Position numbers and translations under genes: made by a program. Positions 30,492 through 61,530 of a stretch of DNA of 64,000 nt are shown piece by piece (within the stretch, counting starts at the first letter, position 1; every line of letters begins with the position of its first letter). The stretch comes from Polytrichum commune (lineage: Eukaryota > Streptophyta > Polytrichopsida > Polytrichales > Polytrichaceae): assembly GCA_950295325.1 (NCBI GenBank), contig OX485803.1:20398001-20462000 (forward strand), written 5' to 3'. The notes below the pieces were generated by a model. That model worked only from the letters and a program-made list of their open reading frames with translations, was not told the origin of the DNA and ran no database searches.

Positions 30492-30697
30492 CAATGATTG
30501 GGGAGAACCGGCAGTTAGTCACAGATGAACCGGTTGAAGTCCAAGACTTCAGAAAAATTACCAATCACTTTAGAGAAATTTAGGGAATATACCTCAAACT
30601 AATATAGTCAAACCGAAGGATGTCAACATGTAACCATTTGGACTTGCAAACACTAGGATCTCAACCGATTATGCCCAAAAAATCTCCCCGATCACTG
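30492..30697 (+). mobile_element. hAT-type MITE family C, copy 1
   Basis: It begins 'caatgattggggagaacc' and ends 'ctccccgatcactg'. The body has the family order: 'agttagtcacagatgaaccg', 'tgtcaacatgtaacc', 'aggatctcaaccgatta'. It is about 206 bp, slightly shorter than the 226-bp full size. Flanks TTGAAAAT / CTGAGAAA are weakly similar. Confidence 0.75.
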
Positions 30698-30799
30698 CTG
30701 AGAAAATCTAATAACCATTCTAAACTTAATAGTGAACATGATGAAGGAACCCACACCAAATGACCATTTCACGAGCACGAGAATGTTGGACACTTTGAG

Positions 30800-31250
30800 T
30801 AATGAATAAGATGGCCATACGAGCTCCAAAACGTACGAGGGAAGTGGCGTCGAGCCGATCCCGATCGTGTGTTTCCATATCCGAGGAGGAAGTGGGCGGG
30901 GGGGGGGGGGGAGGTGGGGGAAAAGGTGATCATTTAAGTGAGGAAGCAAGTTCGAGGGTTGAAAGGGGGGAGAGTCGTGGCCTACTACTACTACAACACT
31001 AGTGAGGCAAGCAATGAAGGGGAATTGGCATGGCAGGGCATGGCAGGGATTGTCGTGGCTTTGTACACCTACAAGTACCCAACATGTACCCAGCGGGTGT
31101 CCTTTGGCCATCTTACTTAGGTGGATCTGATGCCACCTCGAGCCAGGCCATCAATGGATGTCCAAGGGCTTTCAAGAGTGCTCTCAAGCGAGTGAGTCTC
31201 CTGCATTCGAGTGATCAATCGTACACCTTCATCCCCCCCCCCCCCCCTTC
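30800..31250 (+). other. G/C-rich stretch with poly(G) and poly(C) runs
   Basis: It holds a 13-14-base G run at about 30898-30911 and a 15-base C run at 31233-31247. A 66-codon frame from 30802 (Arg/Ser-rich then polyglycine from the G run) has no recognised similarity. Confidence 0.3.
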
Positions 31251-31271
31251 TTCAATCTCCATCTTTACTCA

Positions 31272-31296
31272 AAAGAAGAAGAAGAAGAAGAAGAAG
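31272..31296 (+). repeat. (GAA)n microsatellite at the edge of a MITE
   Basis: About eight GAA units run directly into the left terminus of the family B element, where the expected TA duplication is missing. Confidence 0.85.
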
Positions 31297-31715
31297 GTAG
31301 AAATACCATAACCCGTGAAAATAAGGTGATTCGCATTGAAGATCTGGTCTGACAATCATGAGATAATTTTCCAAGATAGACGAGAAGGATTCATGAAGAA
31401 TGCAAGTTGTTTCATAATTTTCTGCCCTATGCAAAAAATGCTACAATTTTTCAAAATGGAAAGTTGTCCAATTCCCCACTTGTTCATTAGATTCTCCCTA
31501 CACCGAACACGGTAATATGCATTTCCATATAGGACATTGCCTAAATTGGTTACCTCATGAGTACATTGACACTTGAATTCCATTGGCTACACTAAGTGTG
31601 CACACATTGAAGTTGCCGCCAAGCCATAATCGGTTTTAGAAATGGCACTTCACCATTATGACGGCGGTCCAGTGCACGGCTAGAGGGTAGTTAACGGGTT
31701 ATGGTATTTTGACCT
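31295..31715 (+). mobile_element. TA-flanked MITE family B, copy 1 (421 bp)
   Basis: Ends are AGGTAGAAATACCATAACCC and the near-complement 'gggttatggtattttgacct'. The body is shared along its length with 33833-34448 and 58451-58873. No coding frame. The TA target duplication is not preserved here; the left end abuts a GAA repeat. Confidence 0.8.
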
Positions 31716-31724
31716 TGTCTCATC

Positions 31725-31749
31725 TAGGGTTTAGGGTTTAGTTTAGGGT
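31725..31749 (+). repeat. Short interstitial telomere-like repeat
   Basis: It reads 'tagggtttagggtttag' followed by 'tttaggg', about three units of the plant telomere motif TTTAGGG. It is too short to be a telomere; such telo-boxes occur in promoters and at repair junctions. Confidence 0.7.
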
Positions 31750-31780
31750 CCAAGTCGTCCAAAACACTCCTCAACTGGCT

Positions 31781-32017
31781 CAGTGATCGGGGAGATTTTT
31801 GGGCATTCATAATCAATTGAGATCCTAGTGTTGGCAAGTCCAACTGGTTACATGTTGATGACATCCTCCGGTTGTGCTATATTAATTTGAGGTATGTTCT
31901 ATAAGTTCCTTTAAAGTGATCGATAATTCTATCTTTTGAAGTCTTGAACTTCAACCGGTTATTTCTCAAACTCAACCGGTTCATTTGTAATCAACTGCCG
32001 ATTCTCCTTGATCATAG
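31781..32017 (-). mobile_element. hAT-type MITE family C, copy 2
   Basis: It starts CAGTGATCGGGGAGATTTTT and ends 'ctccttgatcatag', inverted relative to copy 1. Flanking 8-mers AACTGGCT (31773-31780) and AACCAGCC (32018-32025) match at five of eight positions, the differences being transitions. Confidence 0.75.
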
Positions 32018-32149
32018 AACCAGCCTCATTTCGGATTAAGATTGGACCCAAGTTCGATGTATATTGATTTCTCAAGCTAGGAGGAGTATATTCCTTGGGT
32101 TTAAAGTGCTCTTCAGGAGGATATATGTTGTTTGCTTGTCAAAAGCAAT

Positions 32150-32190
32150 ACCCCTCTCTCTCTCTCTCCTCCCCCCCCCCCCAAAAAAAT
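32150..32190 (+). repeat. CT repeat, poly(C) and poly(A) run
   Basis: Consecutive (CT)n, about twelve C and seven A. Low complexity only. Confidence 0.8.
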
Positions 32191-32572
32191 CAATCATGAT
32201 GGTCACCGGGAATGACATGTCTGACTTGGCTCTTTTTGTTGCAAGAATACTATACACCTATTGAAGCATCGGTGCAGACTGAGGCAGAGTTCGGGAAGTT
32301 TTTGAAGCCTTAGTGGCTAATTGCCGGTAGTTGCTATGAAGGGTCGGATTTTTTCCAATTTACATCGGCAACAGCCGGTCTTTTGTAAAATCAATCGGCC
32401 AATTGCTTATATTTTCATATTTTCATTGGTCAATATCCGATTAAATGGAATTCATATCGGCACTAATTGTTTAAAAAATGTATGAAAAGTTACTAGAAAT
32501 CATTTCTTAGTACAAATTCTTGAATAAGTGAAAAGAAAGGCATGTTCAAAACTTTAAATTTGAAGAGTTAAT

Positions 32573-32640
32573 ATCCTTGGCAGGAATTGAACCTAGCAAT
32601 GCCTTCACCGCTTGAAGGCCAAGGGTCCCCCAATTCTTCA
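32573..32640 (-). repeat. tRNA-like (pol III box A/B) remnant, Leu/Ser type
   Basis: On the minus strand a box B, GGTTCAATTCC (32583-32593), follows a box-A-like stretch reading 'ggccttcaagcggtgaaggc'. This recalls the 'GGCCGAGCGGTTAAGGC' region of Leu/Ser tRNAs. Acceptor-stem pairing is not convincing, so it is more likely a tRNA pseudogene or SINE head than a working tRNA. Confidence 0.4.
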
Positions 32641-33795
32641 TAGAAGCAATTGGATTTGGTCATGAAAAGGTTGTACAATCAAAAAGTTTAAGGTTTAGGG
32701 TACTTCCTCAAGTGCATCATCAGATGCCCCATACAAATAGTGCTCTGGATGCTTCCGGCTGAAATCCAGTAACTCACAAGAATCGGCTACATTTCCGGGA
32801 CATTTTTGGGTCCATCGGCTAATTGCCGGAGGATTGAAATTACAGTCGGATTGCCATCCGATGGTTGGAAATTGAGACTGGCCATGAGGGGAAATCCATC
32901 GGCTGATAATGAACTAGCCGTCGGTTTTCCCCGAACATAGGACTGAGGCTATTTATTTCGCTTAGCCATCTCCAGGCTATAACGGAAAGGATGGTCCCCA
33001 TTGATTTTTTAACCAACACATGAATCACCAACATATTCGAACTTTTGTTAACTTGTGCTAGCATCTCGCCTGGGGAGTTGCCAGCACAACCGAGCATCGC
33101 CTAGTGGTTGAAGAAAGTCATGGTGGAGGCTGCTAAATTGTGGCGAAAAAACCAACGACGACGCTCCATTCCATTAGCATCACTTCGCCATTCCATGTCT
33201 TGGACCTGAACCCTAGTTTGAACTTCTTAGGTCCAAGTTTTTCTTGTGCATGCTCAAGAGGTACTCTCTTGTTTGTATGCGATAATTCCATGTTTGGGCT
33301 CATCATATTAGTTTGGACGTTTCTTTGGTCTTGGACCCAGTGTAAACTCGGCCTTATCTAACCTAGATGAGAGACTCGAGACTCATGAGCACGTAAATCG
33401 TGTGACACTCAAGAGCCTAGTCATGGCATTTGGACTCGGGTTGTGGCAACACAGGAGTTCCCCTCATCTCCTCTCATGTCACCTCATCTCATGCGAATTG
33501 TCATGTCCTGGCAGCGATAATTATTGTACTGTAGGAAAGAAAGAGAGTTATGGAGTCTGTGGCTTTTGGAAACACTTTGAATAATTGGCCAGATAAAGAG
33601 CCAGAAGAGTAAATGGAAGGGGGCTACACAAAAATATAAAATAAAATAAATGTAATATAAAAGGAGTCAGTCTCCACAGGCAACTGGAAAGACTTGCACG
33701 CCACAGGCCGAGCGTGAGCTTCTGGAGCATGGGCTCACAATTGAATGTCTCCTCAATAATAAGTGCTTACACAATGCAGGTATCAATGAGACCCA
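32641..33795. other. Intergenic block, no gene recognised
   Basis: A run of 'atcggct'/'ccggca' motifs (32330-32930) hints at a repeat family with other copies elsewhere in the genome. A Harbinger-like TIR end lies near 33340-33358. No coding motif. Confidence 0.3.
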
Positions 33796-33803
33796 AGGGA
33801 AAG

Positions 33804-34654
33804 CAATGAACTAGCCGGAGAAGTGGGTGCTAAGGTAGAAATACCATAACCCGTGATAATAAGGTGATTTTTATCGCATCCAAGATCTGGTCTGACAATC
33901 ATGAGATAATTTTCCAAGATACATGAGAAGGATTCGTGAAGAATGCAAGTTGTTTCATATTTCTTTGCTCTATACAAAAAAAATATGCTACAATTCTCAA
34001 AGTGGAAAGTTGTCCAACTCCCTCCTCGTTCACTAGATTTTCCCTACATTGAACACGGTAATCCGCATTTCCATATGGAACATCGCCTAACCAGTTGGCT
34101 TATCCTGCCAAAAAAGAGTCCGATACCGTCGCCGCATGAATACGCGGCTTTTAACCAGTGAGGCCTGAAGGGCTGCGAAGAGGGCGAAGAGACTTAAAAA
34201 AAAGTATTTTTTCAGTTTCTTTTATCATTTTTTAGACAAAAAATTCTTGCGTGCACCAGAGAGCTCTTTTTGCTTGAATCGGTTACCTTATGAGTACATT
34301 AACACTTGACTCTCATTGGCTACACTAAGTGTACACGCATTGAAGTTGCCGCTGAGCCATGATCCGTTTTAGAAATGGCATTTCACCATTATGACGGCAG
34401 TCTAGTGCACGGCTAGAGGGTGGTTAACGGGTTATGGTGTTTCTACCTTAGTCACAGATGAACCGATTGTGTTTGAGAAATGACCGGTTAAAAATTTCAA
34501 GACTTCACGGAAATTACCCATCGTGTTAGAGGAATCTATAGAATATACCTCGCGTTATTGAAGAAATCTCGAAATGATGTCAACATGTAACCAATTGGAC
34601 TTGGAAACACTAGGATCTCAACCGACTATGCCCGAAAATCTCCCTTGGACACTA
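33804..34654 (+). mobile_element. hAT-type MITE family C, copy 3, split by a family B element
   Basis: The left stub 'caatgaactagccggagaag' (33804-33832) and the right body from 34449 ('tagtcacagatgaaccgatt' to 'ctcccttggacact') join into one family C element once 33833-34448 is removed. This shows that the family B insertion is the younger event. Confidence 0.7.
33833..34448 (+). mobile_element. TA-flanked MITE family B, copy 2, with about 190-bp insert
   Basis: Ends are AGGTAGAAATACCATAACCC and 'ggttatggtgtttctacct', with TA on both sides (33831-33832, 34449-34450). Compared with copies 1 and 3 (421-423 bp) it carries extra sequence at about 34091-34276 that starts 'ccagttggcttatcctgcc' and ends 'gagctctttttgcttg'. 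The insert contains a CCGC...GCGG hairpin and an A/T-rich half. Its origin is unknown. Confidence 0.8.
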
Positions 34655-35550
34655 AATCTTATATTGGTACCCAAGATGGAGACCACCTTCCAAATGATAG
34701 GTGTTATTCTTACCCTGAAGCTTGGTAAAACATGATCAGTGTAAGGGGAACGGTCTGCCATTCACATTGGTGAACGAAACACCAATACTATTTACTCCAT
34801 TTTGTTTCTGCTCAAGTTATTGGCATACATTACGAGGCAAATGGGTTCACATTCGCATCGATGTACGTTGCACCTATGTTTCTTTTTCATTTTTTTCATT
34901 TTTTTCTTTTGTTTTTGTATAAATGAATTGGAGTCCTGCAACATTCTAATTCGATTTCTTGTTCACTTACACCAATTCCTCCAAGGACTCACCAAAGTAA
35001 TAAGTATCACCTACTCTTCAAACATAATATGTGTATACCTACGGTTTGTGAGCCTTATGTCATTACTCTTTTTAATGAACACCTTTAGTTGAGTGGTATA
35101 TGGCAAGGCCTCTAGTCAAGATTGAACAAAAAAACTAAATAAAAAAATTCACCCTCCGGTCCCTCCCCTTTGGTAGGTGTTGTGAATTCTTTCACAGGTG
35201 GAAAGTGCCCACAATATGGCCACATACCTTATGTAAGTGAGCAATTTCTAGTCCAGATTGCTCCTTCATAAAATTGCCCGCGGTCTCTCCCCCACATCCT
35301 CATTGCACATTAAGCATGTGCAAATTGAGCATGCACCACTCCAAGCTGATTTTTAGCTCATCTCTTTTGGTGCGATCTATGATTTCCACATGAGATTTGA
35401 GTGGGTTGCAAGCAATGTAAGATTACCATGTGGCAGAATCACAAGAGTAAAAACCTTACCCCCCTCCCCAAAAAAACCCCCGTGAAACATGAAACCTTCT
35501 ATGATGATATCAAGCAATCACTATGGGGTTTGCATGATCTCACTATGAGG
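34655..35550. other. Intergenic block, no gene seen
   Basis: It is AT-rich with T-runs. The frame at 34802-35092 is Phe/Leu-rich low complexity. No motif recognised. Confidence 0.3.
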
Positions 35551-35552
35551 TA

Positions 35553-35783
35553 CTCCACTAAATATGATATTTAGTGTCACTAACTTTTTGAAATTATGAA
35601 ATAATATTTATTTATTTATTTATTGCATGTCTCGTATTTTACCAACAAATGTTAAATTGGTTGTTTAAACACTATAAAATATTAACAACTTTATTTGGTA
35701 AGAAATTACATCAATAGTAAAAATATATAGCACTGTGTAAATCCAAATAGTAAGTGACACTAAATATCACATTTAGTGTGGCT
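35553..35783. mobile_element. MITE family N, copy 1, with self-complementary ends
   Basis: The left terminus reads 'cactaaatatgatatttagtg' in 'ccactaa...gtcac', and the right reads 'gtgacactaaatatcacatt' then 'tagtg'. Each end is itself close to a palindrome and the two ends are inverted copies. The body is AT-rich without coding capacity. Confidence 0.55.
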
Positions 35784-36561
35784 TCTCATCCACTAGATAG
35801 TTAGTAAATTCATGAATTTGGATTTATATTTTATCATCATAGTATACCATAAAACCATCTAGTGGAAGAAAACAAAGATGGTGAGGGCAAACCTTTTAAG
35901 TTTTGGTTGTTCTAAGGTGAAGGGAATTGGACTTTGCCAGTGATGTTGAAGCTTTGGATAGAACATCACTACATTTGTTGGTTGCATGTGGAGTTTGGGA
36001 GGGGGGGGGGTGGGATTTGGCTATGAACCTTGTTGTCAAACATGTATGTGGTCTTCATCTCATGTACTCATGTTGAATATTGCATCAATGATTTTATTGA
36101 CCTTTCTATCTTGATATTTAAAAAATTTGAGTTAATTGTGCAATGTTTGAAAATATTGGTGTAAATTTGACACTCTCAGATCGACACCAACATAATCTTG
36201 CTATGTAAAAACTTTTGTTGGGCATTAATTCTTGTTCTCAATAAATAATTCAAGAACACTTCCATGTGGAGCATTTGTGGAGCAAGGTTGGGGGGGGGTC
36301 CAATATTTGATTATATATATTTATTAAAGTCACTTAGCGGTATTCGCCAACTATGTCAGCACAAGGAACTATTGCTTCAGACATGCCGATCCCTATAGTA
36401 AGTTCAGAGTATTGTGATACTGTTATACTAAAACGTGATAGAAACACCTCATTGGAGAACATTTTTGACTTTGAGGGCCACACAATTTAGCATAATTATA
36501 GTTCATTAAGAAAGGACTTAAAACTCAAAAAGTGTCTTGGCGTCCTTAGGACTTTCCATCT

Positions 36562-36596
36562 TAAAAGAAAAAGAAAAAGAAAAAGAAAAAGAAAGT
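36562..36596 (+). repeat. (GAAAAA)n microsatellite
   Basis: Five units of GAAAAA, then a broken unit. No associated gene. Confidence 0.85.
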
Positions 36597-37230: not shown

Positions 37231-37489
37231 CCCTTCCATTTTTGTTTCCCTTGTGGTTGGCAACTCCAACGTGATTGAATATGCTCATCAAATCACTCAA
37301 ACATCCACACCCACTTGTAGTTGACAATCTCCACCATTTTGTGGATTTTCTACCACACACGAAACCTAGTGTACTTGGTTCGAGTGCTAGGGTTATTGAT
37401 AGCTCTCGAGTGGCATGGGTCCACTTTGAATGCCGCGTCCACCTACTTGTTCTCAAATGATTTTAACAGTTGTGAAAAAAAGAAAAAAA

Positions 37490-37707
37490 AAGGCCATATC
37501 CAATATTCGGTCGAGATCCTGTTGTTCCAATGTAAATCGGTTACATGTTGGCATCTAATAATTCTTCTTCATTAAATTGAGGAATATTCTGCAAATTCCT
37601 GTAAATCGATTGATCGGTAATCCTCTGAAGTCTTGAATTTGAACCGGCTGTTTCTCAAACTCAACTGGTTAATCTGTAACTAGTTGTTGGTTCTCCCCGT
37701 GCATTTG
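37490..37707 (-). mobile_element. hAT-type MITE family C, copy 4, left end lost
   Basis: The family body ('gagatcctgttgttccaatg', 'cggttacatgttggcatc', 'ttctccccgtgcatttg') is present. The first terminus has been replaced by A-rich sequence. It directly precedes a family A element. Confidence 0.65.
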
Positions 37708-37713: not shown

Positions 37714-38759
37714 AGGTAGAGGGTGCTGAAACCAACACTTTGAGCTATTGCACATACATATGGCTATGTGGTTGATACCAAAAAAATAAAAAGTAAGAAA
37801 TAAATCTGATTAGAATTTGGGCTAAACATAGGTATCAAGAGAGAAAAAAAAGTAGCCTCAATTGAATATTTGATGATTATTCAAAGTCAAAATCACTGGC
37901 TTCCTTAAACTAATCCCTAGGTCATGTGTATGACGACCTTGCGTATGATGAAGACCCCCACTTTCATTGCCTAGAACCAACACAACATAGTTAGTTACTA
38001 GGCCCAAGGTATATCAAAGCCCAACTAATAACGGTGCGCAAAGCCACATGGCCACCGCCATGATCCCATCTGGCTTGGTTGCAAAATTGTTATCTTGCAT
38101 CCTAGGTGTCGCTTGGGGGGTTCACTCCCTCTTATATTTTGCATACACGTGCGTTCGGGACCTATTTATTGGGGGGCTATTTACCTTGCAGAAAAGATTA
38201 TAATGTATGGTATTTTTCAAAATAAAGGTGTGATGGTATTTTACATGTAATTCTTTTTCACTATTTTAAAGCCCCCTATATTATATGTAAGTTTTTAACA
38301 AAATTTATCTACAATGAATATATTAGACCCTATTTTTTATCGCATGTTGTTCTACGATTTTTCGCCAGTGAACCCCCCGAGAGGTGTCGACCCCCTTGCA
38401 TCCCAAGTACCAACCCCCTTTGTGCTTTGTTAGCCTATCTCCTTGGCTTTGTGGATAGAATGGCTAGAACCGTCTCCCCCCCATCCCCATGGATAGAATG
38501 GCTAGAATAAGGCACTGATAGGCCACCCTAAAGCCACCTTGAACCAACCTGAGATAGAGTGCAGCTCGTTACCTACCCTATATGAAGGTAGTGGAGGCCA
38601 ATATTAGATGGTCCCACTAATGGCACCTAAACTCATCAATGTGTGGGCCCGGGCACTCTGTTCCATGGCGAACAACTAAAGGTAATAGAGTGTTAGCAAT
38701 TGGGAGGCATTTATATGTGTTGCTTTTGGGTGGGGTGTTGGTTTTAGCACCCTCTACCC
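37714..38759 (+). mobile_element. TIR family A element, about 1046 bp
   Basis: Ends are AGGTAGAGGGTGCTGAAACC and the complement 'ggttttagcaccctctacc'. TA precedes the left end (37712-37713); the right TA has decayed to CC. It shares internal blocks ('gctattgcacatacatatgg', 'aacaacatagttagttactag' type) with 57248-57966 but has about 330 bp more. No transposase frame, so it is non-autonomous. Confidence 0.75.
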
Positions 38760-40757: not shown

Positions 40758-43400
40758 CATGCTATGAACAAGAAATGTTCAATGACTTTCTCATTTGGAA
40801 AATAGAAGTGGATGTTACATGTAATAAAGGCATGTTTAATTCATGATGTATATTTTGTATATGGAGTGGAGGCATGTATAACATTAAATTTATAAGATTA
40901 GTATAAATATATGAGTCCATTTTCTAACATGCCGTTAGTACATATACACTATTTTTTTCCTCTATAAACCTCTTGTATATAGAAGGTTTGATTTCACAGT
41001 GACCCACACATGTCATTTAGGTTTCCATTGAATAGTCCACGCCCCAGGCGTCTACCTTATTGAGTTATTTACATGCGGCTGAGGAGAGAGACTAGGCCCT
41101 TCAACCTCAAAAAAACACAAACATAGGCTCAATATTCAAACTAAAATATAGTGTAGGTTCGCTAGAGTCTAACTTCTATATAGTCATTTTGATTTTCATC
41201 ATCTCTAAGTACACTGAACATCTATTGATATTTAGTGTGGCCCACATTTATTTATGAAGTCATGAATCTTTGAATAATTCAAGAATAATCTTGGTAAGAC
41301 TAGTACATGCGAAAACCCGTCTCGTTTATGTTTATATATATATAGATTATTATGGTGCACGACATTTGTGACTATGTTCATATAAGTCTAATAATATATC
41401 GTCAAACCGAAGCAATCTAGATTCTGTGTTTTATTGGCATAATATCATCTTTATAATTATAACTAAAAGCCACACAACTAGAGTACCGAGGAGTTTGGAA
41501 TTTAAGTACGACCCACTCACCTCGGTACACAACACTTATATGTAAACCCACATTAATGTGACGTTGACCTTGAATGTACCAACATACAAGTTGTAGGCTA
41601 CAATTTGCATGTGTTTGCGGAAAATTTTAATGACACTGCTCGTGTTGCCTAGTAGCATGTTTTATGTGTTCACACATGCACAACCATGAAGGCCAGTTAG
41701 CATGAAAACTTGAAATAGACCTCATTTCAAATTGTATGGCTTCTTAATCCCATGAAGTAGGGTAAAATACATATCTAACACGTATATTCAAGGAGGAGGG
41801 TTATAGTCCTTTCCTAAAATGTTGCCCTTTGAGGCGGCCATGTCACCTGCTAGGGTTAGGGTTACAAACGAGTTTAGTCTTCGTCCTCTTGGCTTGGTCT
41901 CTCTACACCCGGGATGGCACACTACCTATGTTGAAACTTGAGATTAATTTGTCATGTGATGTTATGGAGGAGTGATTGATGAGTTTGTGGTACTTGTGCC
42001 TTCCAGCTTGCTTCATTTTCTTGGCACTTGCTCCTATAGCCACATATATGTTTTTATTTTGCTTCATTCCAAATTTTTAGACAATAAAAGAAAAACAAAA
42101 TATTTGTTCAGACTTATTCGACATAGACTTCATAATGTTTTTCTTCATAAAGTCCACTTGAAGCACTTCAAAATACATAAAATTGAGTCAACTTTCAAGT
42201 GCAAACCCTTAAAAAAAACCAATTTAAATACTTATCTATCTATCTATAATCTCAACTTCACTCAAGACTTTATAAATACTACACTTCCATGTATAGTATA
42301 TATAGAAATTAAAAAATATAGATATTAGTATTTGGTGTCTAACTTAAGTTCTTCAATTGTGGAAGTTGGGACATATATTCAGCATGCTCACAACATAAAG
42401 TGAGACATGAGTTACACACACCCTAATTCTTAAGTATTTGGTGTAATAATAATAAAAAATCTTGTTGATCATCTTGATTTGGCTCACTGAACAAAAAAAT
42501 ATTAAAAAAATCACACACACATACACAAAACACACACATGCATGGTTCGTGGTTATGAGGTACACCACATAATAATGTTTGGTCTTGTGATGCACAATGA
42601 AGCTATAAACAGAGACTCCAGTTTGGACATATACAAGACACCCCGCCATAGATAGTTAAGTTCTTATGAGTAATACTTTTTTTATAATATTATTTGTAGT
42701 GTGCTTTTCATGCGCCAGTGAGGGACTGATCATGATAACCAAACTGAGCACATTGTAAGTCTTTCTACAATTTGCAACTTAATAAGGTACGTGGGTGTTC
42801 TTTGGTTCGTTTTTCAGGTACTCCCACCTTAGAGTCACACAACAAAACTCATGTTGCATTAGCAAGACTATGATGAAACATATGCAGAAATCAAACCTCC
42901 CATCATTTAGTTATCATGGTTATCGGAAGTGCATGTTTGTTGACTTCTTAACTGAATACAATAGGTCCTCCCAATTGTGTTCAATATTGATTATAGAGTA
43001 GTTATTAATCTTTGAAGACATACCGTAGCTCTCTAGAAACTTGGGCAAAAAATAATTAATTTTAAAGATGCCTAAATTTTTGGGAAATTAATTTTGTTGA
43101 GAAATAACATTCAAAGAGTGCCTAAAATCACAGTAATGCAAGTCACATTCACTAGAATCCAACAAAGTAGCATCAAAATCAAAGAAAAATCTGTTGGCAA
43201 GCAAAACCCTGACATACAAGTAAAAGATAAACTTTAGGGTAAGGAATTGTTCGTTAATTAAAGTGTTTAGGTCAATCGTTGCTGCCATAAATGAAATTAG
43301 GAAAACCGTCCATGATCATAGAAATGACTTGGATGATTGTCTAACTTAATTTAAATTACTTTTTGAATGCGCCCAATTTTAGAATATTACTTTTTGGGCT
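40758..43400. other. AT-rich intergenic block, no gene seen
   Basis: It contains scattered 'tttagtgtggccc' motifs (near 41230) of the family N type and short AT repeats. The 118-codon frame at 41972-42328 is rich in Lys/Ile/Asn/His as expected from AT-rich DNA and has no motif. Confidence 0.35.
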
Positions 43401-43459: not shown

Positions 43460-44751
43460 TAGAGAACTACGGTAGTCCAATCTCTTTTAAACATGTGTTG
43501 TTTATGATGATTGCTCTTTGATCTTCACCGCACCACATACCGATCACATCTAGGGCTCCCATGAAGTGAAGAAGTGGAGCCACTGAAGACCCATCTACCA
43601 TATATAATTTGCAGGACAAGTCGGAGGAAGAAGGCGGCGACAGTCTCCAGACAGAGAGGCTGGGCAATCACACGCCTGGAGCAGTTGTTCTTAAGCAGAT
43701 CTTAAGCAAGCAAGCAAGCTAGATGTGAGTGTGTAGCCAAGGGAGGAGCCATCTTGTCAACCTCGTACTGTAACTTCGTCGCATTGGAGGGAAGAAAAGG
43801 GCCGGGGCGGAGGAGGAGGAGGAGGATCTAAGCTAGTAAATTCAACCTTTACCTCAGTTCCTGAAGTTTATAACACTCCTGACGCCCAAAAGGCTGCTAC
43901 CCACCAACGTTACGTGACGGCAGACCCCAGTATTCATTCACATCTACAACCTTACCACTCCAATACTGCCTGTTTCCTTTTTTTCTTGTCTCTCCACAGA
44001 TTGGAATCATCAGGTGATTCATCCCCAAGCTTAAAGCCCCCACCCTAAGCTAGCGAGACGGAAGCAGCAAACTGCAGCGGAAGTAGTAGTGCGATTTTAC
44101 TCTGATCGGTGACAGTTAGGTACAGGTGCAGTAGTAGCAACAACAGAAGAAGAGGAAGAAGAAGAAGAAGCCCAACTCCGTCGGTTCTATCTGTCGACTC
44201 TTGAGTTCTCTCTGTATAGATATGCCGCGAGGGAGTCGGTACTTTTTCTGATCGGTGACACTTAGAAACTCAACTCGGTTGTTTCTGTTTTGCGGAATCG
44301 GTGTGCTGCAGAGGAGGGAGGGGAGTCCGTCGGTACTGCCAAAATTTTGTGCAGCCACCACAAGAATCAATAATCGGTGCTCCAGGGGCGGGGGTCGAAC
44401 TATCCTCGTAGAACACGAGGCCAAGGAGTTTGAGAACTTCTGTTTTTTTGGGTCTATGTTGTTGTTATTGTTGGGGGGAATCTGAATCCGAGTAAAGATC
44501 CTGCATGAAGCAAAAATCAATATCATCAGCCGCTGCAAGTAGTTACAGTTGAGTTGGGTGGGGATGATCATGATCGTCAAGTTTGAGAATCATCAAGCAT
44601 ATGAGTTTCACATTCATGAATGTTGCTACAGACAGACAGGCAGACAACCAACCAAGGCGCGGAGCATGGAGACACGCGGGTCACCAGAGATGGTAATTCT
44701 TTTGGATTGAGACACGGTCGCTGTGGCGGAGCTGTCTGTGCTTAGAAGTAC
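43460..44751 (+). promoter_or_regulatory. Upstream and leader region of the GT47 gene
   Basis: GC content rises from about 43480 and purine-rich (GGA/GAA) tracts appear at 43812-43828 and 44145-44170. This is typical of a plant promoter and 5' UTR. No intact upstream gene is visible; the minus frame 44116-44580 reads through purine repeats and is taken as noise. No TATA box is assigned. Confidence 0.4.
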
Positions 44752-46206
44752 ATGACGGAGAGATCATTGCTCTTGTCTCGCAATTATTCGAATTATTCCA
44801 CCAACAACAAGATGCAGAAACTACAGAAGCCAAGGCTGGTGTACGGGTGCTGCGTCGTCTGCTTCTTCATCATCATCCTCACGCTATGGATGTGCCCGGA
44901 GCCTCAAATTCAATTAAGCGCCATCTCCACCACTGTCAACCCTAACCCTCTTGTCTCTCCAATTTTCGCCCCAGTCACCACCACCGATGATGACACCTGC
45001 ACCGGCCGAAGAATCTTCACCTACAACCTCCCATCGTCATTCAACACCGACCTCCTGGAGCTCTGCGACGGCCATCTCGTCTTTTGGATAAAGTTCTGCA
45101 AGCACTACCGGAACTATGGGTTCGGCGAGATTCTGAACTCATCGGTGCCAATTTTTCGTGACGATTGGTATGGCACCGATGCGTACATGCTGGAGGTTAT
45201 CTTCTTCGAGCGCATGCTAACTTATGATTGTGCGACATCCAACCCCGACGAGGCAGACTTGTTTTTCATTCCCTATTTCTCAGGGTTAGATGCTTTGCCT
45301 TACCTCTACGGCAGCAAGAGGGCGCGTCGACAAGGAAAAGAATTAATCTCGTGGTTGGAAGCGAACGCGACCGAATCTTGGGGGAGGTTTAAAGGCATCG
45401 ACCATTTTATGATTGCAGGCAGAACCTCCTGGGATTTCAGCCGCCAATTATCTGAAACCGAGGCTTGGGGTACATCGCTTTTCAGTGAGCCTGCTCTTTG
45501 GAATGTGACTTCGATGCTGCTGGAGCGGAAGCCGTGGATGGGAAGAATCGAACAAGCCATCCCATACCCTGTTGGATTCCACCCTTCCACTACTGCAAGC
45601 TTAACCTCGTGGATTGACCACGTTCGAAACTCCAACCGCAATTTCCTGTTTTCTTTTTCAGGTGCTCTCCGCCCCCAGATGACAACAAGCATTCGAGGAA
45701 TTTTGTCACAACAATGTGCCAACGCAACCAACCAATGCTCCACACTCGATTGCAGCAAAATTCAGTGCAGCCATAACCCGGAGCCGATCTACACCAAACT
45801 TCTGGACGCGGATTTCTGCTTGCAACCTCGGGGGGATACTGCAACTCGGAGATCCACGTTTGATTCCATCCTCTCAGGTTGCATTCCTGTGTTCTTCCAC
45901 AAGGACACTGCGCGCACTCAGTACACTTGGCACCTACCTTCCGATTTCGAGAATTGGTCCGTCTACATCGACGAGATGGCCATCAAGAATGGCAATGCGA
46001 ATGTGCAGGAGATTCTCAATCGATACTCCAAGGAGAGAGTCATCGAGATGCGAGAAAGGTTGATTTCCATCATACCTAACATTGTGTACAGACATCCTTC
46101 CGGTGTTGCTATGGCGAATTCGATGAAGGATGCGTTCGACCTCACCATCGATGGGATGGCCCGGAAGGTTGCCGCCTTAAAAAAGGCCACCTTGCTACCG
46201 CTATAA
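44752..46206 (+). CDS. GT47 exostosin-family glycosyltransferase, MUR3/XLT2-like (xyloglucan galactosyltransferase clade)
   Basis: It is a Golgi type II membrane enzyme predicted to add a sugar, typically galactose, to xyloglucan side chains. The 484-residue frame is complete and intronless, as is usual for this clade. A short cytoplasmic tail precedes one membrane segment at about 29-47, then a Thr/Pro-rich stem and the exostosin domain at about 84-445. Clade blocks: IFTYNLPSSFNTDLL (88-102), FMIAGRTSWDFSR (219-231), FLFSFSGALRP (298-308), DFCLQPRGDTATRRSTFDS (354-372) followed by ILSGCIPVFF, then TQYTWHLP (389-396). N-glycosylation sequons face the lumen at residues 129, 205, 251, 324 and 401. 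Acceptor specificity (MUR3, XLT2 or a sister such as a galacturonosyl or arabinosyl transferase) cannot be told by eye. The frame is GC-richer than its surroundings and has no lesions. Confidence 0.93.
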   Translation: MTERSLLLSRNYSNYSTNNKMQKLQKPRLVYGCCVVCFFIIILTLWMCPEPQIQLSAISTTVNPNPLVSPIFAPVTTTDDDTCTGRRIFTYNLPSSFNTDLLELCDGHLVFWIKFCKHYRNYGFGEILNSSVPIFRDDWYGTDAYMLEVIFFERMLTYDCATSNPDEADLFFIPYFSGLDALPYLYGSKRARRQGKELISWLEANATESWGRFKGIDHFMIAGRTSWDFSRQLSETEAWGTSLFSEPALWNVTSMLLERKPWMGRIEQAIPYPVGFHPSTTASLTSWIDHVRNSNRNFLFSFSGALRPQMTTSIRGILSQQCANATNQCSTLDCSKIQCSHNPEPIYTKLLDADFCLQPRGDTATRRSTFDSILSGCIPVFFHKDTARTQYTWHLPSDFENWSVYIDEMAIKNGNANVQEILNRYSKERVIEMRERLISIIPNIVYRHPSGVAMANSMKDAFDLTIDGMARKVAALKKATLLPL

Positions 46207-47724: not shown

Positions 47725-48705
47725 CTAGAATAGAGGCGTCCATAATTGATCACTTAGAAGATTTTGCACCAAGACTAGTGAAGTATAAGGCAGTGTAATT
47801 TTTCCCGTGTAGGATGATAGAAACTAGGAGGACTGCAAATTTTTTGGTAATGTTATTCATTAAATTAAATTACTGTAACTTTTTGAAGCCAAAAGTTGGC
47901 TCAAACATATTACCAAAACATATAACTGTTCATTTTAACTACTCATTCCTCTTCAATTTAGCACTCAAAACGAGGACATGTGTCATGGCATTATTGGTTC
48001 TGGCTTGACCACAATTCAATCCCAGCTTGATTGAAATTCCGGTACCCTATAAATTGCCGATGGGGTCCTAATCGGGAATAGGCACCTCTACTACATTTCT
48101 CAACATAATCCCTAGCAATTTCATGGCTAGAACAAACGGAAACATTGGTGTGATCTCATTCCTTAGACTAATAGTAATACTTTCAAATGTTTTTCAAAAT
48201 ATTTTCCAAATTGTTAGTGATTCTAGAAGGATTGTGCATAACATTAAGTAGCAAGCCCGAATTGACCTTCTTAAAATTGACCTACTTGATGCTCTTTCAA
48301 GAGCAAAAGTAACACTAGGTTTGAGTTTTACTTAGGCTATTTTAGATCTATTTGGGTAGTTACTTTCAATGCTTAGTATTAATTATGTCGGTTTCTAGGA
48401 CAAAACTAATGCCAAGTGGTGATAAAGGTTCTAATCTAGGCTAAATTACGATCTTAACAAATTTAAATAGCTATAAAGCAACGGGAAAGTTGGTTAGGTC
48501 AAAAAGGTAGTTGCACTTTTTGGAAAAGTCTCCCGACACTAGCATTGGAAACCTCTTTGATGCCTTTTTGAAGCTTCTATATTTGATTAATTATCCATTT
48601 ATTCACCCTTGCTTTGCAAACTTTTCCCTTCTTGTTGAGGTAAATTTGCGGGTACTCAAAGGGTACCCTCTTAGCATTGCTACTTAATGTTATGTGGTTC
48701 ACAAA
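47725..48705 (+). repeat. Dispersed repeat E, copy 1 (about 1 kb)
   Basis: It is homologous over most of its length, in inverted orientation, to 62595-63705. Shared landmarks are 'cacatgtgtcatggcatta'-type sequence, 'cggtttctaggacaaaactaatg', 'cttcaaaaaggcatcaaagag' (complement) and the final 'gggtaccctc...ttaatgttatg'. Within it 'cataacattaagtagcaag' (48239-48257) and 'ttgctacttaatgttatg' (about 48682-48699) form an inverted pair about 460 bp apart. No coding motif. The superfamily is not identified. Confidence 0.6.
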
Positions 48706-50047: not shown

Positions 50048-50620
50048 CCCGTTCACACCATCACGCACCATGAAGTCGGACCATGGAAGATGGCCTTTTC
50101 CCATCGTCCGATTTCTTAAAAACAATCTCAGTTTGCAAAGCCGTTGGGGGGTCTGCACTGGGTGTAAAATCGAATGTGGACCAAGAGGAATGATGACCGT
50201 GCACCGAAAGTGGATGTGTTGATTTGTTTTTAATATATGTTCAAAAAGGGCAGATCTCAAAAGGAAGAAAAAAATCAAGTTTGGTCATTCTCTTGTCTTC
50301 ATCTTTTGATCCCCACAAAACATTTCAGTGAAAAATTTTATTATAACATCATTTCTCTACCATGGGCCCTTGCCTTTTTCTACTAGAGCACCTCTTTTGC
50401 CTCTCCCACTGCAAAAACCCATCGGACCATGTCAGTGGATAATGTAGGCCTTAAAATATGTTTTTTGGGGACCTCGAACTAGCATGATCACTCTCACATT
50501 TCTTCCTTGGTGTGAACCGAAGTCATCCCGGGACGAGTTCAACAACCAATCACAGATTTTACAGGGCCTTTGGGACGACTTCATCATCCATGGTGTAAAC
50601 ATCATGTCAGCCAGGCGTAA
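50048..50620. mobile_element. Possible degenerate TIR element (Harbinger-like termini)
   Basis: 'gttcacaccatcacgcacc' then 'atgaagtcggacc' at the left is roughly complementary to 'ggacgacttcatcatccatg' then 'gtgtaaac' at the right. This resembles the 'gtttacac' ends of the element at 26861. No target duplication was established. Confidence 0.3.
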
Positions 50621-50639
50621 CCTGGGAGACCTTCAGGCC

Positions 50640-50850
50640 TAGTCGGTCAAAATCCTAGTGTTTCCCAAGTCGAGCCGGTTACATGTTGCGATCTTTCGAG
50701 TTTTTCTTTCTTTCTTAATTTGAGGTGCATTCCATAGATTCCTATGAAGTGATGGGTTGATTTTTCCCCGACGTCTTGAACTTCAACCGGTTGTTTCTCA
50801 ACCTCAACTGCTTTATCTGCAAGTAGTGGTCGGTTCACCCCGTTCATTTG
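50640..50850 (-). mobile_element. hAT-type MITE family C, copy 5, left end lost
   Basis: The body matches ('aatcctagtgtttcccaag', 'ccggttacatgttgcgatc', 'caaccggttgtttctcaac', 'ttcaccccgttcatttg'). The CAGTGATCGGGG terminus is missing. Confidence 0.65.
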
Positions 50851-54789: not shown

Positions 54790-54825
<36 letters not shown>

Positions 54826-54838
54826 TACAGACACACAC
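54789..54838 (+). repeat. (TA)n(CA)n microsatellite
   Basis: About ten TA units then about ten CA/TA units. Confidence 0.9.
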
Positions 54839-55462: not shown

Positions 55463-56367
55463 CTATAAAAGGGAAACACTGCAACCATGGAGAGAATCAA
55501 TGCCCCGAATTCTCTGCAGTCGGTCGTTTCTTTGGTTTAATGACTTCCACACACACTCTAGGTATTTCAGGATAATAATTTTGGCTGCATATGTAGCATG
55601 CTTCGTGGAGGCATCAAGTGACGTGGACATGCAATGATCAAATAATACATCAGCTGCTTTTTGCTGCCTAATAATGTCGTAACTTAGTTTGATGATGAAG
55701 CTTCAATACCACAGGGTGTCGTATGGTTCGACAAAAAAAAATTCATTTCTGGAGGAAAAGTGCCGCCTGTTGTAAAACACAGTGGTCAAGACAATGTTTA
55801 ATCCCACGTGGACATTAGCTTTCGGCACTCAAAGTGTTGAATGAAACAACACTTTATGTAACATTACTAAGTTGCTTGTAGAAGTGATGTTGGTCGAAGA
55901 ACAACAAAGTGTATATGTACTGAAATAGTTCTTTGTATGTTCTCTGGCTCTCAGGGCCAGTTTGAATTTGGAAGGCACTATGTCACACCCTACTTATGGG
56001 GGAGGGGGTAACATTGGCTACCTCTACAAGATTAGAAAGAGAACCTTTGCAAGTAGCTTAAGAATGTATTGGTGAGAAAGTGACAAAGAGATAATAATCA
56101 ATCAGTTATGAGTGGTAGAGTCCCTAATACTTTGACTTATGTCTTAAGCTCAAAACTGAACCCCAATGCACATAACATTATTCAACGCTAAGGTTAAGTT
56201 ATGATTCCAAATAAAAAGATCGGCTTACCTACATGTCAATCTTTTCATGTTATTACTAATTAGTAGCAAAGACTTTTCATGTCCGACACTGAATTTAAGA
56301 AAACCAATGCATCGTTCCTCGATGATTTGAGCACCATTCCCGAGAAATCCATGGACCCACAAAAGCC
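55463..56367 (-). other. Candidate coding exons of an unrecognised spliced gene
   Basis: On the minus strand 56367-56229 reads open for 45 codons (LLWVHGFLGNGAQIIEERC ... NNMKRLTC) and ends AG|GTAAGC. The next open block begins at 55700 after AG and reads FIIKLSYDIIRQQKAADVLF onward, to a stop at 55463-55465 unless spliced earlier near 55486. The phases agree (2 then 1 base). Other possible exons upstream on the same strand are 60500-60412 (SSCKRESANAEVV) and 61750-61600. No family is recognised, and frames of this size arise by chance here, so this is only a lead. Confidence 0.25.
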
Positions 56368-57067
56368 CTTGTGAAGGGTCAAACAATGTCTACATGGTTT
56401 TGTGACATTTCGTGGGGAATATCATTCCGATTCAACCCATGTTTTATGTATATATGTGCACATCCAGTAAGGTATAATTTCCAAGTAGGTGTTATATATA
56501 TATATATATATATAAGTTTGGGTGCACTGTTACCTAGTATTGATCTTTCTAGCTCAATTGCAAAGCACAAGCACCCATCACAGAGCTTCATCACTTTGTG
56601 CATGACCAGAGCAAGAGCAATGTGCCATAATTTGACCTAGTCCCCACAGAATTTCGCTGAACCAAATATGCCCTTAAACTTCGAGGCACTGTTATACTTG
56701 CAAAATGTAGAAGCAAGAATAGTAATAATATAATGTGTGACCCCAGTAGCACTTTGTGTTGGCCTACTTTTCACTACCAGGGAGCTACAAGCTGAGTTAG
56801 TTGACTCTCAAAAGCCTGAATCCAGGAAGCCTGTAGACTTGGAGGGACTCTTATACTTGCAAATGTAGAAAAATGCATAGTAATAATATGATGAATAATA
56901 ATGTGTCACCCCAATAGCACCTTTTGTGGTTTAAATATATATATATATATTGAGACAGAAGGCCCGTAACATTCTTCAGAACCAGAAAACATGCCCACGA
57001 AGAGGTTTGGAAGAGACTCTGTCATCCCAGAAGCACTGGTGCTGGCCTACTTTTAACTACCAGGGAG

Positions 57068-57993
57068 CAATGATCAGGGAGAACTGGCAGTTAGTCACAA
57101 ATGAACCGGTTGAAGTTCAAGACTGCAGGAAAATTACCGATCAGTTTACAGGAATTTATAGAATATACCTCAATTTAATAAAGGAAAACCGAAAGATGTA
57201 AACATGTAACCGGTTGGACTTGCAAACACTAGGATCTCAACCGATTAAGGTAGAGGGTGCTTAAACCAACACTTTAAGCTATTGCACATACATATGGCTA
57301 TGTGGTTGATATATAAAATATATATTCATATTAGCCTTTGGGCTAAACATAGGTATCAAGAAAGAAAAAATATTTTTAGTCTCAATTGAATATTTGATGA
57401 ATATTCAAAGTCAAAACTACTAGCTTCCTTATACCAATCCATAGGCCCCGTGTATGGCAACCTCGCATATGATGAGGACCCCACCTTCATTGCCTAGAAC
57501 CAACACAACATAGCTGGGTACTAGACCCAAACTACATCAAAGCCCAAGTAGTAATGGTATGCAAAGCCAGACGGCTACCTCCATGATCCCTCCCGGTTCG
57601 CTTGCAAAACCATCACCTTGCATCCCGGGAACCGACCCCCTTTGCATCCCAGGAAATGACCCTTTTGTGCTTTGTGGGCCTACCTCCTTGGCGTTGTGAA
57701 TAGAATGACTAGAATAGGCATTGACAAGCCACCCTAATCCCACCTTGAACCAACCCGAGATAGAGTGGAGCCCGTTACATACCCTACATGAAGGTCATAG
57801 AGGCCACTATGAGGTGGCACCACTAATGGCACCTAAAACCGTCACTTCGTGGGCCCAGACACTCCTACACCGCCGGGTACGGTTCAAGGTTGTAGAGTGT
57901 TGATAATTGGGAGGCGTTTATAGGTGTTGGTTTTGGATGGGGTGTTGGTTTTAGCACCCTCTACCTTATGCCCAAAAATCTCCCCGATCACTG
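57068..57993 (+). mobile_element. hAT-type MITE family C, copy 6, split by a family A element
   Basis: Starts CAATGATCAGGGAGAACTGG and ends 'ctccccgatcactg'. The 8-bp target duplication is CCAGGGAG (57060-57067) against CCAGGGAA (57994-58001), and the sister unit at about 56780 shows the empty site 'ccagggagctacaag'. Removing 57248-57966 leaves a normal-length element. Confidence 0.85.
57248..57966 (+). mobile_element. TIR family A element, 719 bp, nested in a family C MITE
   Basis: Ends are AGGTAGAGGGTGCTTAAACC and 'ggttttagcaccctctacct'. TA flanks both sides (57246-57247, 57967-57968). The intact family C sequence at this point reads 'gattatgcccaaa', so TA is duplicated and the element boundaries are exact. 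No coding frame. Confidence 0.85.
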
Positions 57994-58176
57994 CCAGGGA
58001 ACTACAAGGTGGGTTAGTTTACTCTCAAAATCTTGAATCCAGGAAAGCCAAAGATTAAGGTGGATGAGCCTAAATAAAACGTTACCTACTACCTAGTATT
58101 GATATTTTAGCTCAAGTGCAAAAGCACAAGCACCCATCATGGAGGTCCGCCACTTGGTGCATGACCAGAGCAAGAG

Positions 58177-58402
58177 CAATGATCGAGGAGAACTGGCAGT
58201 TAGTTCCAGATGAACCGGTTGAGTTTGAGAAATAACCGGTTGAAGTTCAAGATTGCAGGAAAACTTCCAATCATTTTACAGGAATTTATAGAATATACCC
58301 TAATTTAGTAAAGGAAAACAGGAGGATGTCAGCATGTAACCGGTTGGACCTAGAATCACTAGGATCTCAACCGATTATGCCCAAAAATCTCTCTGATCAT
58401 TG
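58177..58402 (+). mobile_element. hAT-type MITE family C, copy 7 (226 bp)
   Basis: Starts CAATGATCGAGGAGAACTGG and ends 'ctctctgatcattg'. The target duplication AGCAAGAG is perfect (58169-58176, 58403-58410). The empty site is seen in the sister unit near 56610 ('ccagagcaagagcaatg'). Confidence 0.9.
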
Positions 58403-58450
58403 AGCAAGAGCAACATGTCATAATTTGACCATTGAACCAAGCATGCCCTT

Positions 58451-58873
58451 AAGGTAGAAATACCATAAGCGGTTAACTACCCTCTAGTCGTGCACTAGAC
58501 CGCCATCATAATGGTGGAGTGCCATGTTTGAAACGGATCATGGTTCGGCGGCAACTTCAATGCGTGTACACTTAGTGTAGCCAATGGGAGTCAAGTGTTA
58601 ATGTACTCATGAGGTAACCGATTTAGGCGATGTTCTGTATGGAAATGTGGATTACTGTGTTTAGTGTAGGGAGAATCTAGTGAACGAGGAGGGGGTTGGA
58701 CAAACTTTCCACTTTGAAAAATTGTGGAATTTTTTGTATAAGGCAGAAAAATATGAAGCAACTTGCATTCTTCATGAATCCTTCTCATCTATCTTGGAAA
58801 ATTATCTCATGATTGTCAGACCAGATCTTCAATGCGAATCACCTTATTTTCACGGGTTATGGTATTTCTACCT
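58451..58873 (-). mobile_element. TA-flanked MITE family B, copy 3 (423 bp)
   Basis: Starts AGGTAGAAATACCATAAGCG and ends 'gggttatggtatttctacct', in the opposite orientation to copies 1 and 2. TA flanks both ends (58449-58450, 58874-58875). The sister unit at about 56672 reads 'cccttaaacttcgagg' at the matching place. Confidence 0.85.
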
Positions 58874-59087
58874 TAGACCTGGAGGACTGTTATACTTGCA
58901 AATGTAGAAGCAAAAATAGTAATAAAATGATGCATAATAATGTGTGACCCCAGTAGCACTTTGGTGCTGGCATACTTTTAATAACCAGGGAGCTACGAGG
59001 TGGGTTAGTTGACTCTCAAAATCTTGAATCCAGGAAGCCAAAGCTCAAGGTGGATGAGCCTATTTAAAACGCAACAATAATCTGGAC

Positions 59088-59313
59088 CAGTGATCGGGGA
59101 GATTTTTGAGCATAACCGGTTGAGATCCTAGTGTTTGCAAGTCCAACCGGTTACATGTTGACATCCTCCGGTTTTCCTTAATTAAATTGGGGTATATTCT
59201 TTAAATTCCTCTAAAATGATCAGTAGTTTTCCTGCAATCTTGAACTTCAACCGGTTATTTCTCAAACTCAACCGGTTCATTTGTAACTAACTGCCGGTTC
59301 TCCCCGATCATTG
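59088..59313 (-). mobile_element. hAT-type MITE family C, copy 8 (226 bp)
   Basis: Starts CAGTGATCGGGGAGATTTTT and ends 'ctccccgatcattg'. The target duplication ATCTGGAC is perfect on both sides (59080-59087, 59314-59321). It is the best-preserved copy in the window. Confidence 0.92.
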
Positions 59314-59321
59314 ATCTGGAC

Positions 59322-60087
59322 ACCTATATACCTTAACCTCCACAATGTCACCTTCTGTAATGTCACTCCTTCTCTTATATCCCCAAGCCCTAGTGAACAA
59401 ATGTACTCAGTTCAAATCTCCCCTCCTTGTTGTCACAATTTCTTTTTCATATATCATGGGTTTTGACATTAGAATAATCCACCAAACCACACGTTTGCAT
59501 GCATCACATTGTCACCATTGCCATTATAATGTGTCATTATTTCAATGTTGGTTTTGTGTGATTCCCTTATTCTCACACATTACGTTATATCTCTATTATC
59601 ACAAATCCGTGTTAATAGTGCAGACCTCCTTAATATCACATGCACTTTGGTTGCCACAGGCACGATATTAGGGAGGTTAGAGTGTGTATGAATAATATGT
59701 GGTGAGGTGGGTAAGAACTAGCACTAAAAAGATGTTAGACTACATGCTCAAAATATACTAACCTTTCTAGGCTCAGTAATCAACACAATTGACCACTTAA
59801 TGAACACGCGAATATTCACGTTGACAGTACAAAAGGTTTTAATATGAACTTTGAAAAGTATGAGGCACATGGCTACATGCACGATTCGGATTTGCTATTC
59901 ATTTTAAACTTCAAATGTGTGTCATATCCTACGAGAAGTGGGTGCGGGGAGAAAAAGTATCCATATGAGGCACATCTACCTTACACTTGTTCATTCTATG
60001 AGTTCAACAACCCTTCAATCCAAACACTGAAATTCTATGAGTAAAAGTTTGGACTTTGATTATAAAAACCGAAGTCATTAGCATTAA
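59322..60087. other. Intergenic block, no gene seen
   Basis: Frames such as 59345-59671 (plus, 108 codons) lack motifs. AT-rich. Confidence 0.3.
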
Positions 60088-60313
60088 CAGTGAATGGGGA
60101 GAAGCAACCACTAGTTACAAATGAACCAGTTAGATTTTGAAAAATAACAAGCTGAAGTTCAAGACTTCAAAAAAAATACTGATCATTTTAGAAAAAAATA
60201 AAGAATATACCCCAAATTAATAAAAAAAAACCGAAAGATATCAACATGTAACCAGTTGGACTTGGAAAACACTAGGATCTCGACCGATTATGCCCAAAAA
60301 TTTCAAAATGCTG
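60088..60313 (+). mobile_element. hAT-type MITE family C, copy 9 (226 bp, diverged)
   Basis: Starts 'cagtgaatggggagaagc' and ends 'tttcaaaatgctg'. The body keeps the family order with many substitutions, and the length is exactly 226. Probably an old copy; target duplication is not readable. Confidence 0.65.
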
Positions 60314-60534
60314 AGTGAACTTGTATTGATTACAAACACACACAGACATGAGCATCATCAACATTGTATTGCATACCACTGTGTCCCATCCCACACTGTT
60401 TTGCTCACATGCTGCCGATTATATTGCGGTTCTCATGGCATGCGAGAAAATCGTGAGGTTGATTGACCACTTCAGCATTTGCGGACTCTCTCTTACATGA
60501 ACTTCTAAAATATGTGAGCAAAATAGGCAAAGAT

Positions 60535-61530
60535 AGGCCGCACCCCCGAGACCATGACATATCCTAAACTTAACACGATGTACAATTGTTGTATATTCAA
60601 AGCCTTCAAGTGTCGGACTCTGGTACATATTGCTCGTTTTGAGGTTTATTATTGGCTTCAAGTACACATATTTTATCATGTTTCAGCTTCCTCGGGACTG
60701 CGATGATCGAGGAGAACCAACAGTGAGTTACAGATGAAGCGGTTGAGTTTGAGAAATAAGCGGTTGAAGTTCAAGACTGCAGGAAATTCACCGATCATTT
60801 TAGAGGAATTTACAGAAGATACCCCAATTTAATGAAGGAAAACCGGAGGATGTCAATATTTAACCGGTTAGACTTGCAAACACTAGGATCTCAACCAGTT
60901 ATGCCCAAGAATATCCCCAATCACTGCCAAGTTGGGGATCAATGTAACATGTTCAAGATTGACTTTTTGAAGATCCAACTCCAAATCTTCTTAATAATTA
61001 ACACTATGTATCACGGTTCTACATTTAAAGCCTTCAAGTGTAGGATTCTGGTACAATTCGTTCGTTTTAGGTTCACTATTGGCTTCAAGTGTACATACTT
61101 TATCATGTTTCAACTTCTTCCGGGTTGGGGATCCATGTAACATGTTCAAAGTTGACTTTTGAAGGTCCAAGTCCAAATTCTCTTAATATTAACACTATGT
61201 ACCATTTTTCTATATCTAGAACCTCCAAATGTAGGACTCTGGTACTATTATTCATTTCAGGTTTACTGTTGGTCATAAATATATGCACCTTACTTTGGGT
61301 TGGGGCCAATGTACCATCTTCAAAGTTGACTTTTGAAGGTCCAAGTCCAAATCTTCTTAATATTTACACTATGTACCATTGTTCTATATCTAAAACCTCC
61401 AAATGTAGGACTCTAGTACTATTATTCATTTCAGGTTTATTGTTGGTCATAAATATATGCATCTTATTTTGGGTTGGGGGCCAATGTACCATGTTCAAGA
61501 TTGATCTCTAAAGTTCCAAGCCCAAATCTT
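60535..61530. repeat. Tandem array with about 175-bp period
   Basis: The landmark 'catgttcaa(a/g)(g/a)tt' starts units at 60948, 61141, 61315 and 61490 (spacings 193, 174, 175). Each unit also has 'ccaagtccaaat', 'acactatgta', 'aggactctggtac' and 'ttattggcttcaag' or 'tgttggtcataaat'. A partial unit lies at 60540-60700. A family C MITE interrupts it at 60701-60926. Confidence 0.8.
60701..60926 (+). mobile_element. hAT-type MITE family C, copy 10 (226 bp) inside the 175-bp array
   Basis: Starts 'cgatgatcgaggagaacc' and ends 'tccccaatcactg'. The array unit resumes after it ('ttggggatc'). Flanking 8-mers CGGGACTG and CCAAGTTG are only weakly alike. Confidence 0.8.

Follow-up and report, generated by a model that had tools for sequence, protein, structure and literature searches.

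Ten related short sequences lie within 30 kb of a 64,000-nucleotide stretch of Polytrichum commune DNA (hereafter, the window), and the question raised by this locus is what kind of element they represent and how they came to be there. An earlier note on the same DNA had proposed a recently expanded hAT-type MITE family. Our analysis indicates that the sequences are, with high confidence, a non-autonomous hAT MITE family in what appears to be plant nuclear DNA, whose copies would have been mobilised through cut-and-paste by a hAT transposase encoded elsewhere, and into which two other elements, designated X and Y, inserted later.

Ten copies and their consensus

An nhmmer profile built from five copies recovered all ten copies in the window, with E values from 8.7e-80 to 3.4e-37. 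Matches to the five seeds (the copies at 30492, 31781, 58177, 59088 and 60701) arise by construction, and the copies independent of the seed, at 57068, 33804, 60088, 50640 and 37490, were matched with E values from 2.9e-53 to 3.4e-37. The sole additional row at E <= 0.01 corresponded to the 57068 copy's second half, and extending the limit to E 10 added further weak rows, the best of which was 32893-32939 (E 0.055). All ten copies reported in the earlier note therefore exist, each being matched by the profile. Their consensus is 226 bp, and the copies measure 205 to 238 bp once nested inserts are subtracted, the ends of the 37490 and 50640 copies being approximate.

A length of exactly 226 bp, previously assigned to four copies, is clear in three of them, 58177-58402 (minus strand), 59088-59313 (plus strand, with four occurrences of the motif AACCGGTT) and 60701-60926 (minus strand), but applies to the fourth, 60088-60313 (minus strand), only with its right end at 60313, where the sequence is decayed and the position uncertain. 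The copy at 31781-32017 (plus strand) has 237 bp. The copy at 30492-30697 (minus strand) has 206 bp and is missing a 21-bp unit that would lie between two TCAACCGGTT repeats, and that at 57068-57993 (minus strand), interrupted by element Y, has 205 bp minus the insert; absence of the internal 21-bp unit explains why these two are shorter. The copy at 33804-34655 (minus strand) is cut in two by element X, resumes at 34449-34655 and has eroded ends. The remaining two, both on the plus strand, are old and eroded: 37490-37706, with 71% identity to the consensus over 37480-37706 and a profile match that begins at 37503, and 50612-50849 (the 50640 copy), with 77% identity and a start at about 50612-50619. 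Collectively, the ten copies in the window show the features of a MITE, being short, non-coding, numerous, uniform in length and bounded by inverted ends; an element of 226 bp could not accommodate a transposase gene.

Ends, target duplications and empty sites

Short inverted ends starting with YARNG are the rule of the hAT superfamily. The consensus starts with CAGTG and, on the reverse complement, with CAATG, and its terminal bases agree at 14 of 15, so that the ends CARTG...CAYTG fit the rule, as had been proposed. The end CARTGATCGGGGAGA was found with no more than two mismatches at 12 of the 20 copy ends and with no more than three at 15. Not every copy has the shared end, and those of 33804, 37490 and 50640 are eroded. 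At three mismatches, CARTGATCGGGGAGA also occurs at 10501 and 32926 in the window, and neither place is a copy.

The two perfect 8-bp duplications and the single-base variant described earlier were all recovered. The 58177 copy is flanked by AGCAAGAG (58169-58176 and 58403-58410; 8/8), the 59088 copy by ATCTGGAC (59080-59087 and 59314-59321; 8/8), and the 57068 copy by CCAGGGAG/A (7/8), with CCAGGGAG at 57060-57067 and the right copy CCAGGGAA at 57994-58001. The flanking 8-mers agree at 5/8 for 30492 and 31781 and at 1 to 3 of 8 in 33804, 37490, 50640, 60088 and 60701; a recount with the ends shifted by 2 to 5 bases yielded 2, 3, 1 and 2 of 8 for 33804, 37490, 50640 and 60088, respectively. 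The flanks of 31781, AACTGGCT/AACCAGCC, represent a possible decayed duplication (5/8), all three differences being transitions. In flank comparison, a convincing duplication was not seen in five copies (30492, 33804, 37490, 50640 and 60088).

At a spacing of 226, 56 of the 63,680 positions compared in the window show 8-mers that agree at seven or all eight bases, a background that is inflated because at least 11 of these 56 positions lie in or around the copies at 58177 and 59088. Even against this background, three duplications of 7-8/8 in ten copies have a binomial probability of 8e-8, indicating that they are not due to chance. For the six copies lacking a clear duplication, we also allowed both ends to shift by as many as 3 bases, whereupon 30492 rose to 7/8 (ends moved by 1 and 3 bases), 31781 to 6/8 and the other four to 4 or 5. 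Among 2000 control places, 34 reached 7 and 327 reached 6, and the looser-end duplications were given no evidential weight.

Empty sites were sought by joining the flanks of a copy minus one 8-bp copy and looking in the rest of the window for matches that span the junction. Sister repeats hold empty sites of 57068 (within 58943-59051, and a shorter one within 56736-56831), of 58177 (within 56559-56637) and of 60701 (within 61069-61186, target CCGGGTTG). When duplication lengths of 0-12 were tried, 8 gave the highest score for each of the three, by a small margin for 60701 (104 at 8 vs 100 at 5). The duplications of the latter copy, CGGGACTG and CCAAGTTG, are, in comparison with CCGGGTTG, too decayed to be detected from the flanks only. 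An empty site was not found in the window for the other seven copies, including 59088, whose left flank matches 58037-58081 and stops 16 bases before the junction. The empty sites announced in the earlier note are therefore present for 57068 and 58177, and additionally for 60701, but not for 59088 and the six others.

Insertion was independent at least for the three copies that have an empty site. The family has discrete ends, duplicates 8 bp, entered sites that also exist empty and was later nested by other elements. The 8-bp duplication characteristic of hAT elements is carried by 3 of the 10 copies according to their flanks and by a fourth, 60701, according to its empty site. Together with the empty-site peak at 8 in 3/3 cases, the CARTG...CAYTG ends, the short length and the hairpin potential of the one copy folded, these duplications uphold the original assignment to a hAT-type MITE, and they give good support for placing the family within hAT as a non-autonomous MITE.

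Elements X and Y and the age of the family

Self-comparison of the window revealed a 724-bp match of 82% identity between 31294-32015 and 58179-58874, with a hAT copy on each side. A three-place alignment resolved the extra stretch of this match as a separate element, X, which has its own inverted ends, AGGTAGAAATACCATAACC. Element X is nested in the 33804 copy (33833-34448, plus strand), with other copies at about 31295-31715 and 58452-58873, some 65 bp away from the 31781 copy and some 49 bp away from the 58177 copy, respectively. The second element, Y, has AGGTAGAGGGTGCT as its ends and is nested in the 57068 copy (57248-57966, plus strand); it recurs at about 37714-38758, some 7 bp from the 37490 copy, and partially at 130-297. 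With slightly shifted borders, the three distances become 64, 48 and 6 bp. A TA target is compatible with the flanks of both nested elements and of the 58-kb X copy; TA does not stand on both sides of the 31-kb X copy or of the 37-kb Y copy. The target of X and Y may thus be TA, and at 58 kb TTA is also conceivable. A DDE_1 transposase relic at 6812-7177, which we take to be pogo-type, was considered as the source of X and Y. The inverted repeats of 5400-9500 are unlike the ends of either element, and a single AAGGTAGA end is present further downstream, at 7606.

Of the six copies of X and Y, five are inside a hAT copy or no more than 70 bp from one, only two of them being truly nested (distances of 0, 0, 7, 49, 65 and 30,194 bp). 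Random placement over the whole window gave at least five such copies in 5e-6 of 200,000 trials, and placement within 30-61 kb gave five of five at 1e-5. The 70-bp limit was chosen post hoc from the observed distances, and the closeness is a lead, not an established result. We regard as rather improbable the idea that hAT copies serve as landing sites for X and Y (AGGTAG ends, TA borders), with nests growing stepwise; under it, hairpin-forming hAT ends would perhaps attract the two elements.

The earlier note attributed the density of the copies to a recent or targeted burst. There is modest clustering: five copies fall within 3.9 kb (1.1% of 100,000 random placements) and all ten lie past 30.4 kb, with none before it (0.15% of 100,000), thresholds that were set post hoc with the data already seen. 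The two best copies, moreover, are 95% identical to the consensus. Across the ten copies, however, identity to the consensus ranges from 71 to 95% and K2P from 0.05 to 0.37, with values of 0.05 to 0.06 for 57068 and 59088, 0.08 to 0.12 for 30492, 31781, 58177 and 60701, 0.19 to 0.20 for 33804 and 60088, and 0.27 to 0.37 for 50640 and 37490; pairwise K2P among copies extends from 0.083 to 0.49. So wide a spread is at odds with a single recent burst, other elements already interrupt two copies, and at least three copies have eroded ends. The copies are, as judged from this divergence, of very different ages. Clustering by itself does not show targeting, and a single recent burst, or one targeted to this region, of a still active family is very unlikely.

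It is also very unlikely that the 226-bp unit belongs to a larger repeat or transposon and travelled with that larger element or through segmental duplication. The 724-bp match includes a copy on both sides, and 56531-58081 and 58090-59071 are mutually related units, but the extra part of the match is element X, which has its own inverted ends and a third place inside the 33804 copy. Between the related units, moreover, the position of the MITE differs, and where one unit holds it the sister shows an empty site; for 57068, 58177 and 60701 the empty sites in sister repeats refute this explanation. Termini continuing into longer conserved sequence, which the earlier note had named as evidence against a MITE, were looked for, and the longer match is accounted for by element X.

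Internal motif, mechanism and relation to known hAT families

The non-autonomous hAT MITE reading also draws on the interior of the copies. On the plus strand of the 226-bp consensus, CGGTT occurs at 30, 61, 82, 165, 186 and 208, and the palindromic motif AACCGGTT occurs at three places. Counted on both strands, with the palindrome counted twice, CGGTT reaches 9 against a shuffle mean of 0.55, a number attained in 0 of 5000 shuffles. We observed AACCGGTT 14 times in the ten copies (per copy, from none in 33804, 37490 and 60088 to four in 59088) and 0 times in the 60,410 bases that remain once the copies and nested inserts are set aside, where CGGTT occurs 58 times on both strands. The 14 occurrences are not independent, given the common descent of the copies, and part of the motif repetition is the internal 21-bp unit. 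The family thereby has a repeated short motif inside its ends, as Ac-type elements do, and the CGGTT/AACCGGTT repeats are best read as putative subterminal transposase-binding sites, like AAACGG in Ac. This makes AACCGGTT a concrete candidate binding site for a partner transposase; as a palindrome otherwise absent from the window, it is also a possible regulatory motif spread by the family. A literature search for AACCGGTT did not return the motif among the matches listed. Strand folding of copy 59088, the sole copy folded, was equalled by 0 of 200 shuffles (z -4.43).

In the mechanism that we propose, the transposase would be a hAT enzyme encoded at another genomic location, which would recognise the 15-bp ends together with the inward CGGTT/AACCGGTT repeats and move each copy by cut-and-paste. 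Insertion would duplicate 8 bp of the target, as seen at 57068, 58177, 59088 and 60701, and elements X and Y would later have jumped into two copies. A Pfam scan covering 30 of the 65 window frames of at least 90 aa did not find a hAT transposase domain, and Rfam and ARAGORN gave no matches in the window. Two other features of the window suggest plant DNA: a GT47 gene and an open frame for ferredoxin-NADP reductase, among whose best PDB matches are chains labelled chloroplastic.

A literal literature search for the end strings returned no description of the family, the only match being an unrelated one (interleukin-7 receptor, by title), and viral contigs scanned with a 26-bp pattern gave 0 matches. 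The 15-bp end was present in at least 119 stretches of prokaryotic contigs (257 billion bases), from bacteria and archaea; this was judged a chance-level number for a 15-base pattern, and these stretches were set aside. The family is an ordinary one of a well-known kind, the hAT MITE, and it may already be catalogued in P-MITE or Repbase; unless it is, it adds one further plant hAT MITE family with defined ends and a consensus, leaving the understanding of hAT MITEs unchanged.

The comparisons below are made by description. Plant hAT MITE families have been described previously (PMC7385995, PMC12595863). Maize Ds1, of the Ac-Ds system, resembles the present family in being short and without a transposase gene, with an 8-bp target duplication, which Ac also generates, and short inverted ends (PMC3260210). 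Ac carries AAACGG where the present family carries CGGTT/AACCGGTT, in both cases a repeated short motif inside the ends, whereas the terminal sequences set the two apart (CARTGATCGGGGAGA here, C/TAGGGATGAAA in Ac-Ds) (PMC3260210). The AAACGG repeats in the terminal 200 bp of Ac bind transposase, with only three copies shown to be necessary; in maize, 17 of 331 Ds1 elements have three or more AAACGG, and some without AAACGG still move (PMC3260210). In Brassica nigra, BniHAT-1 and BniHAT-2, with inverted ends of 25 and 12 bp, were likewise assigned to hAT MITEs by 8-bp duplications, but they are 673 and 666 bp long with 70 and 75% AT, against 226 bp here (PMC7385995). Rice nDart1, dTok and nDaiZ are non-autonomous hAT elements moved by a partner, as proposed here, and have been shown to move, whereas the copies described here are mutually diverged (PMC12595863).

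Elements X and Y and related ends

Two more families of short elements, X and Y, carry AGGTAG ends, with TA borders at several places. Copies of X lie at 31295-31715, 33833-34448 and 58452-58873, the first of these (at 31 kb) being adjoined by an AAG microsatellite, and copies of Y at 37714-38758, 57248-57966 and 130-297. Within the window, five of the six copies sit inside a copy of the 226-bp hAT-type MITE family or no more than 70 bp from one, a limit that was chosen after the distances had been seen and that makes this proximity a lead only. Outside the X and Y copies found, we observed three extra TAAGGTAGA ends on the minus strand, at 41057, 54703 and 59981, the latter two of which resemble each other; these ends may mark more families of the X/Y type.

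The DDE_1 frame and several repeats

A frame at 6812-7177, which we take to be pogo-type, contains part of a transposase domain of the DDE_1 family (PF03184, E 2.3e-08). No X- or Y-like inverted ends were found among the repeats detected around it, and a AAGGTAGA end is present nearby, at 7606. A tandem array with a 50-bp unit occupies 5041-5411 (about seven copies, 75% matches). Comparison of the window with itself revealed an inverted repeat pair, 48234-48696 and 62594-63072, with 88% identity over 479 aligned bases, and an additional stretch of this pair matches at 75% (47726-48039 and 63388-63713).

Intronless coding frames

An intronless frame of 486 aa at 44746-46206 harbors an exostosin GT47 domain (PF03016, Pfam E 1.1e-64). 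A second, at 14956-16119, is open over 387 aa and, by its PDB matches, encodes an entire ferredoxin-NADP reductase. No long poly-A run was seen at its end in the 590 bases inspected. Because the frame lacks introns, whereas ferredoxin-NADP reductase genes usually carry them, it may represent an intact retrocopy. Its top PDB matches, comprising 1jb9, the maize root ferredoxin-NADP reductase, and eight others, score 578 to 583 bits, against at most 328 bits for the remainder.
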